In this document: piece after piece, positions 7,937 through 31,157 of the stretch
How the letters are laid out: each line of letters begins with the position of its first letter
Numbering within the stretch: position 1 is the stretch's first letter
NCBI GenBank assembly: GCA_947627635.1
Contig: CANQWT010000004.1
Span: forward strand, 1-44,040
Source of the DNA: an uncultured Bacilli bacterium
GTDB taxonomy: Bacteria > Bacillota_I > Bacilli_A > RF39 > UBA660
Length of the DNA stretch: 44,040 nt
Reading direction: 5' to 3'
The notes under the pieces: generated by a model
What the model was told of the DNA's origin: nothing
What the model saw: only the letters and a program-made list of their open reading frames with translations
The model's database searches: none
Made by a program: the position numbers and the translations under genes

Positions 7937-8899
7937 TTAGGATACAACGGGTATTCTTAGTATCTGTCCAATCGATAAAAGATTGGTTGTTAGGCCATTA
8001 AGTTGCTTGATAGCTTCAACTGTTGTTCCATATCTTCTAGCAAGTGCATATAAAGTATCGCCTTTCTCTACTTGGTATGTAATATAAGTTGTATCTGTAC
8101 TTTCTGTTGGGATTTTTAAAGTTTGGCCTATACTTAACATATCACTTGTTAGCCCATTGAGCTTCTTAATAGCTTCAACCGTCGTTCCATACCTCCTAGC
8201 AATGGCATATAAAGTGTCACCTTTCTCTACTTGATATGTAATATAAGTTGTATCTGTACTTTCTGTTGGTATTTTTAACGTTTGGCCTATACTTAACATA
8301 TCACTTGTTAGCCCATTGAGTTTCTTAATAGCTTCGACTGTCGTTCCATATCTTCTAGCAATGGCGTATAAAGTATCACCCTTTTCTACCTTGTATGTAA
8401 TATAACTATCACTTGTATTTTCCTCTTCTTTAGCACAGTCACTAATATTACCATATAAACCATCTATTTTATTCCATGTTGTGCTATTGACTACTCCTGA
8501 TGCAGTAATATCATTAAGCATTTGAAACCGTTTCACAGCATTTTCTGTTTCAATATCAAAACTAGAAGTAAGCGGTCCTTGATAATACAAAAGAGCTTTC
8601 AATTTCTTTTGAAGTTCTAATACATCTTGTCCACTATCTCCTAACTTTAATGTCGGTCTTGTTGAAATAGGAATATAGTCAGGTTCTGTTAAATAATAAA
8701 GTAAATCTAGTGTTTGATTATCCAAAACCCCTGTTACTTCTTGTTGATTTTCTCTTTGAAATGCCTCAATTCCCTCCTCTGTTGCAAGATTATATATTCC
8801 TGTTGGAATAGCATGATAATATCCTAGCTGTTTTAATTTTTCTTGAACAATTTTTATATCATTCACATTGACATTTTGCATCATGTTTTTATCTATCAA
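7937..8899 (-). CDS. peptidoglycan-binding protein: two PGB_1 domains and three LysM repeats
   Basis: About 320 aa. Residues about 10-70 and 85-150 are two PGB_1 domains (LKQLGYYHAIPTGIYNLAT..., LQKKLKALLYYQGPLTSSF...). Three LysM modules of about 52 residues follow, each with KGDTLYA(I/L)ARRYGTTVEAIK and LSIGQ(T/I)L(K/R)IP. Such proteins bind wall or cortex glycan. No signal peptide is present, as in spore-coat/cortex proteins such as SafA that are made in the mother cell; this role is inference. The best start is a TTG at 8899, six bases after GAGGTG; an in-frame GTG at 8908 overlaps that RBS. A sigma-E-like CATATAAT lies at 8917-8924. The gene is divergent from the SpoIID-like gene, 68 bases away. 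Confidence 0.85.
   Translation of the reverse strand: MIDKNMMQNVNVNDIKIVQEKLKQLGYYHAIPTGIYNLATEEGIEAFQRENQQEVTGVLDNQTLDLLYYLTEPDYIPISTRPTLKLGDSGQDVLELQKKLKALLYYQGPLTSSFDIETENAVKRFQMLNDITASGVVNSTTWNKIDGLYGNISDCAKEEENTSDSYITYKVEKGDTLYAIARRYGTTVEAIKKLNGLTSDMLSIGQTLKIPTESTDTTYITYQVEKGDTLYAIARRYGTTVEAIKKLNGLTSDMLSIGQTLKIPTESTDTTYITYQVEKGDTLYALARRYGTTVEAIKQLNGLTTNLLSIGQILRIPVVS
7939..8404 (-). repeat. three tandem LysM-coding repeats of about 156 bp
   Basis: The three LysM modules are nearly identical also at DNA level, including linkers encoding PTESTDTTYITYQVEKGD. Differences are mostly single third-position changes. Such recent duplications can expand or contract by recombination. Confidence 0.85.
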
Positions 8900-16544: not shown

Positions 16545-18392
16545 TTAGTTGTTAGGAGTGAGGACGATGCGGAAGGAACTCACATTATCACCCCATCCAG
16601 GGTTTTGAGCGTAACCAAAACTACCAGAAAGTTTACCCTCATACTGAGCACCTCCACGTAAAGCCCATGGTTCTTCTGTATCTATAATATCTCTATAATC
16701 GTCATACCAACCTGCTGTTTCATTTAAGACATGTCCTTTACATGGACTTCCATTACATGCAGTTTTTGTATCTGTTGTTGTATAAAGATCATAATATTTT
16801 TCTAAAGGCCAGTCTCGTCCTTGAATTATACTTCCATCTTTAAGTTGTCCAGTATATCCTGAATTGCGTTCTAATGTATTTCCTGACATTTTATTGAGTA
16901 CTCCCATGGTATATTCCCAGGCTCCTCCACTAATATCATAGATTCCTGTGATGTTTCCTGTTGTTGAAGCTCCTGCTCCAGCATAACCTTGTCCATTACC
17001 TCGGTCCACCATTACATTATATTGATTTACACAACTAGCTGTACTTGAGACTGTACTTTGTCCACTAGAACACCCTGTCATGTAAGCATTATAGTTATTC
17101 ATATACACTTGTTTATTCTCTCCTGTATATAATGGATTTCCATATTTTCCATACTTACTTTGGGTAAGATATGACATCAATACCCATTCTATATCTTTCG
17201 CTGCATGACTATCATATGTACTTTGGTCAAAGCCATAGATATTTCCTACCTTTGTTATTCCCATGGATACTAATTCTAAAGTTGATACTCTTATTCCTTT
17301 CCACGAATATTCGTTAGGCTTAATAATTGCCTTATTAGGTTCTTCTGTATCATGTCTTGCTTCAGCATCTGTTGTTGCTCCCATGTATCCTGGTTCAAAT
17401 TTGCCTATCCATATTCCTGATAAGTTTTTTTCTCCAAACTTAAATCCTGGCGGAGTGAACCATCCACTTGGTGTGTCTGAATTTGTATATTGGGCACTCC
17501 CATTGTCTGTAGTACTAACGTCTATAAACTTCACATCGATTTCTCCTGGTAATGCTTGACTTGGTTCATCACTTCTTCCTTCCTCTTTCTTTCCATAGTA
17601 GTTTGTCCCATCTTCACTCTTTATTGTATAACTGTATCTTGGTATCCATACCCACATTTGGAGGATATCTTCCATCTTTACTTCTTCTCCTGCTTCTGCT
17701 TTTTGATAACCACTTCTACTTCCATTGGTTACTGTTACTGCATTCGCCCATTCTTGTTTATCATAGTTATACCAATTTGGATTATTGTATTCTGTCTTCT
17801 CCCATCTCTTATTGGTTGTATTGTATACTACAGGTATCATATTGTCTGCGGGCTTCTCTACTTCTACTACTATCCCCTCTATTATTTTTCCATTATTTGG
17901 AAAACTTAACTCTTTGTTCTCTAATCCTCCTATACTTCCAAACTCTACTGTTATATCCTCACTTGTTAAGTTTGTTATTTTTAATTTATAACTTTGACTT
18001 TCTTTGCTATTTATTACTACTCCTTCTTCTGTTGGTGGGATATCTTTTGTGTCCTTATAATAATTGATATGTACTTTCTCACTGATATTATCTTTGTAGT
18101 AGAAATTATATTTGGCATTTCTTTCATTATTATTGGTTAGTGTTATTGTTATATCTTTACTACTATCTTTTGTTACTGTTATCTTATTATCTTTGAAAGT
18201 ACTATCACTTGAAGATAAAGTGGCAGGTAGTGTTCCTGTGATTATCCTAATTGCTTCTTTCTGTTCTTTATTCACTGTGAACATAGCATAACTAAAATAT
18301 CCTACCACTGTAAAAATACTTAACAATATTATCAGTATTAAATAGCTCTTTTCTGCTTTCATTCTTTTTAGAAATAACCTTATTGTTCTCAT
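16545..18392 (-). CDS. surface-anchored protein with C-terminal FGE-sulfatase/C-type-lectin-like domain
   Basis: A 615-aa protein. Residues 1-15 are basic, 17-38 form a membrane anchor or signal, and 40-175 are beta-rich Ig-like sequence (ITITLTNNNERNAKYNF). A linker follows (NPNWYNYDKQEWANAV), then from about 245 to the end a formylglycine-enzyme-like C-type lectin fold: MWVWIPRYSY, GIWIGKFEPGY, YDISGGAWEYTMG, PWALRGGAQYEG and terminal SSFRIVL. This fold presents variable ligand-binding surfaces, as in Mtd and TvpA of diversity-generating retroelements. Cys pairs CSSGQSTVSSTASC and CNGSPC may form disulfides. RBS AGAGGTG is present. The promoter contains G8. Two orphan copies of a related 3' end lie at 23728 and 30931. 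Ligand binding at the surface is inferred. Confidence 0.75.
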   Translation of the reverse strand: MRTIRLFLKRMKAEKSYLILIILLSIFTVVGYFSYAMFTVNKEQKEAIRIITGTLPATLSSSDSTFKDNKITVTKDSSKDITITLTNNNERNAKYNFYYKDNISEKVHINYYKDTKDIPPTEEGVVINSKESQSYKLKITNLTSEDITVEFGSIGGLENKELSFPNNGKIIEGIVVEVEKPADNMIPVVYNTTNKRWEKTEYNNPNWYNYDKQEWANAVTVTNGSRSGYQKAEAGEEVKMEDILQMWVWIPRYSYTIKSEDGTNYYGKKEEGRSDEPSQALPGEIDVKFIDVSTTDNGSAQYTNSDTPSGWFTPPGFKFGEKNLSGIWIGKFEPGYMGATTDAEARHDTEEPNKAIIKPNEYSWKGIRVSTLELVSMGITKVGNIYGFDQSTYDSHAAKDIEWVLMSYLTQSKYGKYGNPLYTGENKQVYMNNYNAYMTGCSSGQSTVSSTASCVNQYNVMVDRGNGQGYAGAGASTTGNITGIYDISGGAWEYTMGVLNKMSGNTLERNSGYTGQLKDGSIIQGRDWPLEKYYDLYTTTDTKTACNGSPCKGHVLNETAGWYDDYRDIIDTEEPWALRGGAQYEGKLSGSFGYAQNPGWGDNVSSFRIVLTPNN

Positions 18393-18443: not shown

Positions 18444-18553
18444 ATTTATGAAATTTTGGAATATATTTTTCAAAAAAACGACCTAAAGTTTTTATTTAAC
18501 TTTCCCTTTTTCTACAAACGGTATTTTAATTCTGGAAAAATATGGGGGAATAT

Positions 18554-18608
18554 AAAAATAATACAAGGTCGAACTTTGTGAGTTCATCTTGAACCTTGTA
18601 TTATTTTT
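18554..18608. repeat. 16-bp perfect inverted repeat (hairpin)
   Basis: AAAAATAATACAAGGT (18554-18569) and its exact complement (18593-18608) flank a 23-base loop that itself can pair GAACT with AGTTC. T-rich on both sides, it can act as a bidirectional terminator in the long gap between the lectin gene and the toxin locus. The rest of 18443-18990 is very AT-rich and shows no gene I can support. Confidence 0.55.
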
Positions 18609-19013
18609 ATTTCCTAACATAATGTTTCTTCAAATAAAGTTTATCTTTATTTGTTATTTACTTAAAAATAGTTTATAATATCTTCTCGTATCTTAGTTTA
18701 CCTAATTATTTTTTTATGTATACTGGATACTTATTGTAGATTATGAATTTACGGGCAGTTATTTCTTTTTAAAAAAATTTTCCAAACTGCACGGCTTTTT
18801 GTGCGCCTTAATTTTCAATTTTGGCTCTTTTTTTGCCCAATTTTTACATTTTTTTCTTTCTTTTGTCGTCATTTTTCTTTTATTTTACGTGCATTTAATT
18901 TTTTATCTCTTATTTTTTCTGCTCCGTGCATTTATCTCTGTAGTTAACGTTTTTCAAAAAAACGAAAAAATTTCTACAAAACATGTAAAAACCTTTTAGA
19001 AACTGTATAAAAT

Positions 19014-23598: not shown

Positions 23599-23727
23599 AA
23601 CTTCATTTCCTTTCATATAAAAAATGAAAGAAGAGAGTTGATTTTATACATGTTTCTTTTAAAATTTTTTCGACAAAAAAAAGAAAGTTTTGGTTTCCTA
23701 CTCATTTTCTTTTTATATAGTTTTCTG

Positions 23728-23931
23728 AATAGACTTTACAAGTTATATCTTTTTACTTGTAATCAGAATTTGGCGGAACGAATAGTTTGTGTTCACTTGA
23801 CCTGTGTTAGGGCCGAATGCGAAAACTCCTGCGTTTGCATTGTTGTCATGATCACCGCCACGAAGCAACCACGGATACGTCGCATTCACCATCCAAGGTG
23901 CATCACCGTTTATCGTCTATTCCTCTTTAGT
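23728..23931 (-). pseudogene. orphan 204-bp cassette encoding the end of an FGE/lectin-type domain (copy 1)
   Basis: On the minus strand this unit reads ACTAAAGAGGAATAG, then encodes TINGDAPWMVNATYPWLLRGG, abbreviated here to its motif NATxPWxxRGG, then AGVFAFG and NYSFRQI, with a stop soon after. It is clearly homologous to the last 45 residues of the lectin-domain gene at 16545 (PWALRGG...SSFRIVL). A TAG stop lies in frame just before it, and no start or RBS is visible. The core is about 51% GC by my count, far above the surroundings. It has exactly the same length as copy 2 at 30931, with conserved ends and a divergent interior. It may be a gene relic or a silent donor cassette. Confidence 0.75.
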
Positions 23932-24107
23932 TTACCATTAAATGGATTATATTTGATTATAAAAATAGTACTTTCCTAAATGGTAGTACTAATCTAATAT
24001 TTTTAAATAACATTCAAATTTTTAAAATTATATTGATTATTTCAATAAAGAAAAACTTTTTAAGGCATCTATCTCAAAGTCCAATTACTTGAACAAATTT
24101 CTTAATA

Positions 24108-24484
24108 TGGTGGAGATGACGAGACTCGAACTCGTGTCCGAAAGGTTTCTTAATCAACGTCTACAAGCTTAGTTAACTAATTATTCTCATACCCTATTCA
24201 AGTAGTTAACGACCAAAATAAAGTACCAGCCACTTAATTCATCTCTTTCCTAGGCAAAAAAGAAATATATCCTACTAAAATTGAACCCTAATTCTTCCAC
24301 GTAGGAAAGGAAGATTAGAGTTGTACTTTCCTTAAATTAGGCAAAAGCTACAGCTTGATTTCCACCAAACATGTTAGCAAGTACATTTTTTGCTTTATTT
24401 GCATTTATTGTTGTTTGCTTATTACGTAAGCACTCGGCTTGCAGTTCATCTCGAAATGCCTCCCGTCGAAACCAAAGCATCCCC
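24108..24484 (-). ncRNA. ssrA: transfer-messenger RNA (tmRNA)
   Basis: The 5' end GGGGATGCTTTGGTTTCGAC and the 3' end TTCGAGTCTCGTCATCTCCACCA (its tRNA-like TTCGAGTC loop and CCA) are diagnostic. The tag reading frame begins ANKAKNV, continues LANMFGG and ends AVAFA before TAA. One-piece form, 377 nt. The AFA end resembles the tags of mollicute-related lineages. tmRNA rescues stalled ribosomes and marks the product for proteolysis. Confidence 0.95.
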
Positions 24485-30930: not shown

Positions 30931-31134
30931 AATAGACTTTACAAATTCTCATTTTTATTTGTAATCAGATACTTGGCGGAACGAGTTGTTTGAGTTCGCG
31001 TTACCGTTAGCTTGACCATAGGCGAAAACTCCTGCGAGAGTTTCATTATACTGAGCACCACCCCGGACAAACCAAGGGTTCGTCGCATTCACCATATCAG
31101 TATAATCACCGTTTATCGTCTATTCTTCTTTAGT
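30931..31134 (-). pseudogene. orphan 204-bp cassette encoding the end of an FGE/lectin-type domain (copy 2)
   Basis: Same unit as 23728-23931. Reading minus: ACTAAAGAAGAATAG, then a frame with GDYTDMVNATNPWFVRGG, AQYNET, AGVFAYG and NSNNSFRQ, ending in TAA after a one-base shift relative to copy 1. The first 30 bases differ from copy 1 at one position, ATGGTGAATGCGACG and GCAGGAGTTTTCGC are identical, and the last 14 bases are identical, while the bases between vary at most codons. The core is about 49% GC. PWFVRGGAQY is close to PWALRGGAQY of the full gene at 16545. It lies between the CmpB-type gene and rpsI, without start or RBS. Confidence 0.75.
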
Positions 31135-31157
31135 GTATCACATTTACTTTGAATTCA

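Follow-up and report, generated by a model that had tools for sequence, protein, structure and literature searches.

Dispersed cassettes that look like stand-alone DGR template RNA genes in an uncultured Bacilli bacterium

Introduction

Diversity-generating retroelements (DGRs) usually have one template repeat (TR) beside the reverse transcriptase (RT), and they are seen as compact loci that vary only template adenines. Surface-protein variation is also fed by the pilS loci of Neisseria, silent cassettes that are dispersed, promoterless DNA donors. DGRs acting on targets in trans or at remote sites are documented in Thiohalocapsa PB-PSB1 (PMC10907252), cyanobacteria (PMC7517822) and Treponema denticola (PMC4891356). 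A survey covering 948 DGRs found a single TR in 79.9% of the DGRs that have several variable regions (VRs), and six TRs in an atypical case (PMC6642488). Among open-licence papers, preprints excluded, we found no account of tens of templates or of scattered template genes.

The system described here resembles the BPP-1 type DGR (bRT, Avd, TR, VR) in its RT with an SQ motif, its Avd accessory protein, an Asn-rich non-coding template, a C-terminal VR and adenine-directed differences, but it has no template at the RT and instead about 43 separate probable template RNA genes with promoters and terminators. As in the remote-target DGRs of Thiohalocapsa PB-PSB1, cyanobacteria and Treponema denticola, targets lie away from the RT; there, however, it is mainly the targets that are dispersed, whereas here the templates are dispersed too. 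In Candidatus Onthousia and related MAGs (L113-L121, L123), tandem-TR DGRs have the same protein motif, several different templates and an RT homologous to the present one (60-68% identity), but the templates are arrayed beside avd-RT, as many as 18 of them, whereas those of the present genome are scattered. The likeness to Neisseria pilS is that a scattered library would supply surface-protein variation; the difference is that the cassettes appear to be RNA genes working with an adenine-mutating RT rather than promoterless DNA donors. TR genes dispersed in this way seem to be a novel DGR variant.

Results and discussion

Anatomy of the two cassettes

The stretch of DNA analysed (the window, 44,040 nt), from a gut bacterium, carries two related cassettes, whose parts are listed in Table 1. 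The initial annotation had singled them out as an odd 204-bp pair with like edges, equal length and differing interior. This was borne out: each is a 194-nt unit which, together with 10 promoter-side bases, gives 204. The two copies differ in 50 of 198 aligned columns (75% identity), and the differences cluster in the interior without a change in length, as had been proposed. Of the codons in the 45-codon core, 20 show nonsynonymous and 6 synonymous differences. The copies agree fully over the unit's opening 20 bases and at the 3' landmarks TCGTTCCGCCA, GATTACAA and TTGTAAAGTCTATT.

Three smaller features that had been remarked on also proved real. The end of copy 2 is rich in AAC, and by its conservation and covariation the terminator-like hairpin behind it belongs to the unit. 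The shift by one base towards the end of the two copies is accounted for by the reading frame, which is kept in the core and lost only after TTCCGCC. A fold predicted from copy 2 as a single sequence contained the same elements as the conserved anatomy (z -3.2).

Table 1 Features of the cassettes and of the candidate target gene in the window
Feature	Position	Strand	Remarks
Template-repeat unit, copy 2 (AATAGAC...GTCTATT; ends pair as RNA closing stem)	30931..31124	-	194 nt
Template-repeat unit, copy 1 (AATAGAC...GTCTATT)	23728..23921	-	194 nt; covariance-model match 23665-23764, E 1.7e-11
Extended -10 promoter element of copy 2, TGATACACT, 7 nt before AATAGAC	31132..31140	-	TGnTAnnnT at matching place in 52/62 cassettes
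Extended -10 element of copy 1, TGGTAAACT	23929..23937	-	conserved TGnTAnnnT
Template core of copy 2, 45 codons in frame (GDYTDMVNATNPWFVRGGAQYNETLAGVFAYGQANGNANSNNSFR), without own start codon	30976..31110	-	
3' hairpin of copy 2, GATTACAA...TTGTAAAGTC, with 3' arm of closing stem	30931..30966	-	covariation
Intrinsic terminator of copy 2, conserved ATGAGTA beside loop	30876..30918	-	helix 2 covariation
Terminator of copy 1	23675..23717	-	
Surface protein gene of DGR target type (615 aa; membrane anchor at the N-terminus, C-terminus variable); VR ~16563-16703	16545..18392	-	candidate target

A family of cassettes with conserved RNA structure

The cassettes belong to a large family. DNA searches recovered 40 copies in the present genome (1.2 Mb, 72 contigs), and a search at the protein level gave 75 related places, comprising stand-alone cassettes with an upstream in-frame stop and large genes that have the same motif, PW..RGG......AGVF......G.....SFR, at their C-terminus. 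A covariance model of the 3' module matched strongly (E 6e-9 or better) at 43 places, spread over 34 contigs; a 44th match, weak and partial, was left out of the count. As some of these copies had been used for training, the model serves to count them and not as an independent test. Forty-three copies in a 1.2-Mb genome is far beyond chance, and because the assembly is fragmented, further templates or targets are probably missing from it. The cassettes matched no Rfam family.

The aligned cassettes have the following parts in common: the extended -10 element, the AATAGAC arm, the template core, a GA[TC]TACAA...TTGTA[AG]AGTC hairpin, the GTCTATT arm and the intrinsic terminator, in which ATGAGTAG is conserved. 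The TGnTAnnnT element lies seven bases ahead of AATAGAC in the 52 cassettes counted in Table 1, compared with 1.07 expected from shuffled flanks; upstream of it, the aligned cassettes showed no strong conservation. The two 3' helices contained 94 double-change cells versus 33 in shuffles, and pairing was lost when the alignment was slid by one column. Pairs with double changes numbered four in helix 1 (the 3' hairpin) and eight in helix 2 (the terminator).

This anatomy bears on the possibility that the family is a miniature transposon with the 7-bp terminal inverted repeats AATAGAC/GTCTATT, as its numerous dispersed copies and inverted ends would suggest. The conserved promoter and terminator lie outside these ends, however, and the two ends act like the arms of an RNA stem: one sister species has the compensated pair AATGGAT/GTCCATT. 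A miniature transposon is thus very improbable, and we set it aside because conservation continues past the ends.

The template cores of the 40 cassettes are always 132, 135 or 141 nt long, i.e. a multiple of three, and free of stops. AAC and AAT make up most of their variable codons, while the framework codons are fixed. An open frame of about 45-60 codons might be read as a short protein-coding gene, but nearly all copies have an in-frame stop upstream, no start codon is conserved and the frame is dropped after TTCCGCC. We set this reading aside, as the frame is not kept, and give it practically no credence. An in-frame, stop-free core followed by loss of frame after TTCCGCC is instead what one would expect of a template that is copied into coding genes.

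RT and Avd are encoded on another contig

The initial annotation had suspected the template or variable region of a retroelement and had suggested looking for an RT with avd elsewhere in the genome. Both points found support: the cassette corresponds to the template side, in about 43 dispersed copies that each appear to be an RNA gene of their own, and one DGR-type RT with an Avd gene is present on another contig (C54). This single RT of the genome is intact (359 aa), has YMDD and LPIGNYTSQ, the latter fitting the DGR motif pattern [IVL]GxxxSQ, and matches PF00078 and phrog_1423; its best match among solved structures is 8ub7_A (E 4.7e-41), which we take to be the Bordetella phage DGR RT, the database entry being titled just 'Reverse transcriptase'. 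By its SQ motif and its profile and structure-database matches, the enzyme is assigned to the DGR clade. The Avd gene, located directly before the RT gene and with an intact frame, matched PF22296 with 73.2 bits (cut-off 40) and phrog_3206 ('Avd protein of DGR'), and scored 70.4 against NF033474, under the cut-off of 80. A target-type gene also adjoins the RT, and we found no template beside the RT on this contig. The 44-kb contig of the window, in turn, carries two templates and one target-type gene and no RT, so its templates and the RT are at least 13 kb apart.

Distribution among relatives

Among the sister species, RT-bearing genomes contained six (G001), seven (G003), three (G004) and six (G005) cassettes, whereas G002 lacked the RT, the cassette and the target domain alike. 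Cassettes are thus present in exactly the RT-bearing congeners, five of six genomes, and in none of the 54 genomes outside the genus (60 genomes searched). G001 and G004 have one cassette ahead of avd-RT, and a G001 contig (C41) carries four in a row.

Named relatives of the RT are in MAGs of uncultured Bacilli ('Lapin' and other series) and in Candidatus Onthousia. The Onthousia-like genomes have several distinct templates in a tandem array beside avd-RT, three to five in most of them; L119 has about 10 and L118 as many as 18. Multi-template arrays in cis thus occur beyond the genus, and scattered templates within it. The Onthousia-like loci contain A-only TR/VR pairs, such as 15/0 in L115; among the RT-related DGR loci, L122 and L125 have 17/0 and 19/0. 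In L118 (349-7494), as well as in L119, L116, L113 and L123, the different TRs are about 350 bp apart, and those nearest to the RT look richest in Asn by eye.

Target genes and variable regions

We recovered 27 surface-protein VRs in the present genome, located C-terminally in their genes. DGRs carry an initiation of mutagenic homing site after the VR. Here TCGTTCCG is common to TR and VR, and beyond it the two diverge. The predicted structure of the target domain had a pLDDT of 32.8, too low to confirm the CLec fold usual for targets, and a profile search with the target family against solved structures gave no match.

In at least seven places of the genome, a target gene is followed immediately, within about 200 nt and on the matching strand, by a cassette (contigs C47, C21, C9, C51, C59, C32 and C45). 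The same arrangement occurs in sister species (C18 of G003, C31 and C52 of G004, C94 of G005). Genes of a second surface-protein family, whose members terminate in NNVQLKPDLNCEY, precede at least four of the cassettes (L008 1734-3212; similar upstream sequence in L003, L007 and L014). The N-terminal part of this family resembles DGR targets, and its C-terminus is different.

Template-to-target differences are directed at adenines in sister species

The initial annotation had asked whether variable positions coincide with template adenines. We paired each VR with the cassette most similar to it by overall identity and counted changes from a template A against changes to A; the p-values assume independent sites and are approximate. 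In the sister species carrying the same cassettes, the expectation held: the ratio was 54:18 in G001 (p 1e-5), 169:59 in G003 (p 9e-14) and 287:133 in G004 (p 2e-14), with a weak bias in G005 (473:406, p 0.013). In the present genome it held only weakly (419:368, p 0.037). Pair by pair, the direction was from A in 9 of 9 cases in G003, 17 of 18 in G004 and 17 of 24 in the present genome. The best unlinked pair, a template on C23 and a gene on C12 of G003, had 14 of its 15 mismatches at a template A. Comparisons within a class (TR-TR, VR-VR) had only 0.27-0.37 A and no excess. Asn accounted for 16-28% of the codons in templates and 4-9% of those in VRs in G000 (the present genome), G001, G003 and G005; in the present genome the fractions were 0.163 in templates versus 0.062 in VRs, and its cassettes contain fewer Asn codons than those of the sister species.

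Most target VRs of the present genome are just 60-70% identical to any cassette. A global adenine-bias test on this genome alone is nearly uninformative; the signal is clear in the sister species. A likely recent template match was found in one gene only (L095, on contig C11). The 5' 57 nt of its VR correspond to a cassette on C49 with two mismatches, both at A. For the final 48 nt of the VR, the best match is the copy 2 cassette of the window (30931-31124), and 8 of the 11 differences are at A (p ~0.004). A deletion separates the two parts. On its sequence, this VR is suggestive of a chimeric cDNA from two templates, although plain recombination could also yield its first half.

Recombination alone is the essence of one alternative, in which the cassettes are silent donors in the style of Neisseria pilS/pilE, transferred into expressed surface genes by RecA-type recombination without reverse transcription. 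The conserved edges and variable interior, the many targets, the chimeric-looking C11 gene with its nearly exact 57-nt cassette segment and the weak adenine bias of the present genome would all fit it. It does not account for the promoter, RNA hairpin and terminator of every cassette, for the adenine-directed mismatches in the sister species, or for the strict co-occurrence of the cassette with the RT. We consider silent donors quite improbable, and the own promoters and the adenine direction are the grounds on which we set this reading aside.

A second alternative is a variant of the template reading: the DGR may have spread its templates and then decayed, leaving an inactive system and relic cassettes in the present genome. 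The weak adenine bias, the reduced Asn content and the many diverged VRs point this way. Against it, all 40 template cores are still open and in frame, promoters, hairpins and terminators have been retained with compensatory changes, and the RT and Avd frames are intact. Decay is unlikely in our estimation; the system may be active in this genome, where most VRs no longer closely match any cassette.

Proposed mechanism

Taken together, the cassette is very probably a stand-alone DGR template RNA gene, and the dispersed bank of cassettes would serve surface-protein targets in trans via one Avd-RT. Judging from conservation and covariation, transcription from the cassette promoter would begin near GAATAGAC and stop at the terminator, giving an RNA of about 250 nt. 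In this RNA the AATAGAC and GUCUAUU ends would pair into a stem that encloses the template, and the small hairpin and the terminator would come after it. The Avd-RT complex encoded elsewhere would bind this RNA and copy the template core with errors at adenines. In homing, the cDNA would replace the homologous C-terminal VR of a surface-protein gene, with recognition via the shared 3' end TCGTTCCG. The templates would thus form a chromosome-wide bank (about 43 in the present genome, three to seven in the sister species) that is not simply kept at the RT, and since the bank is dispersed over the chromosome, different templates could feed different targets in trans.

The single RT probably rewrites the variable tips of about two dozen surface proteins. 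We regard it as an even call whether this goes as far as a trans DGR with dozens of independently transcribed, differing template RNAs, in which one RT draws on, and even joins, templates in a combinatorial targeted hypermutation. If so, one enzyme would offer different frameworks to many surface proteins, uniting a gene-conversion-like choice of template with random mutation. The system would be a natural, testable case of template RNAs acting fully in trans, and the covariation would delineate a minimal template RNA for DGRs. Arrays in cis could then be compared with dispersed RNA genes among related uncultured gut Bacilli.

Additional observations in the window

Copy 1 is situated about 190 bp downstream of a tmRNA gene (24108-24484, minus strand). 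Just upstream of the target-type gene there is a 34-nt imperfect inverted repeat (18536-18626). At 7950-8426, a 159-nt repeat occurs in three head-to-tail copies that are 75-81% identical.
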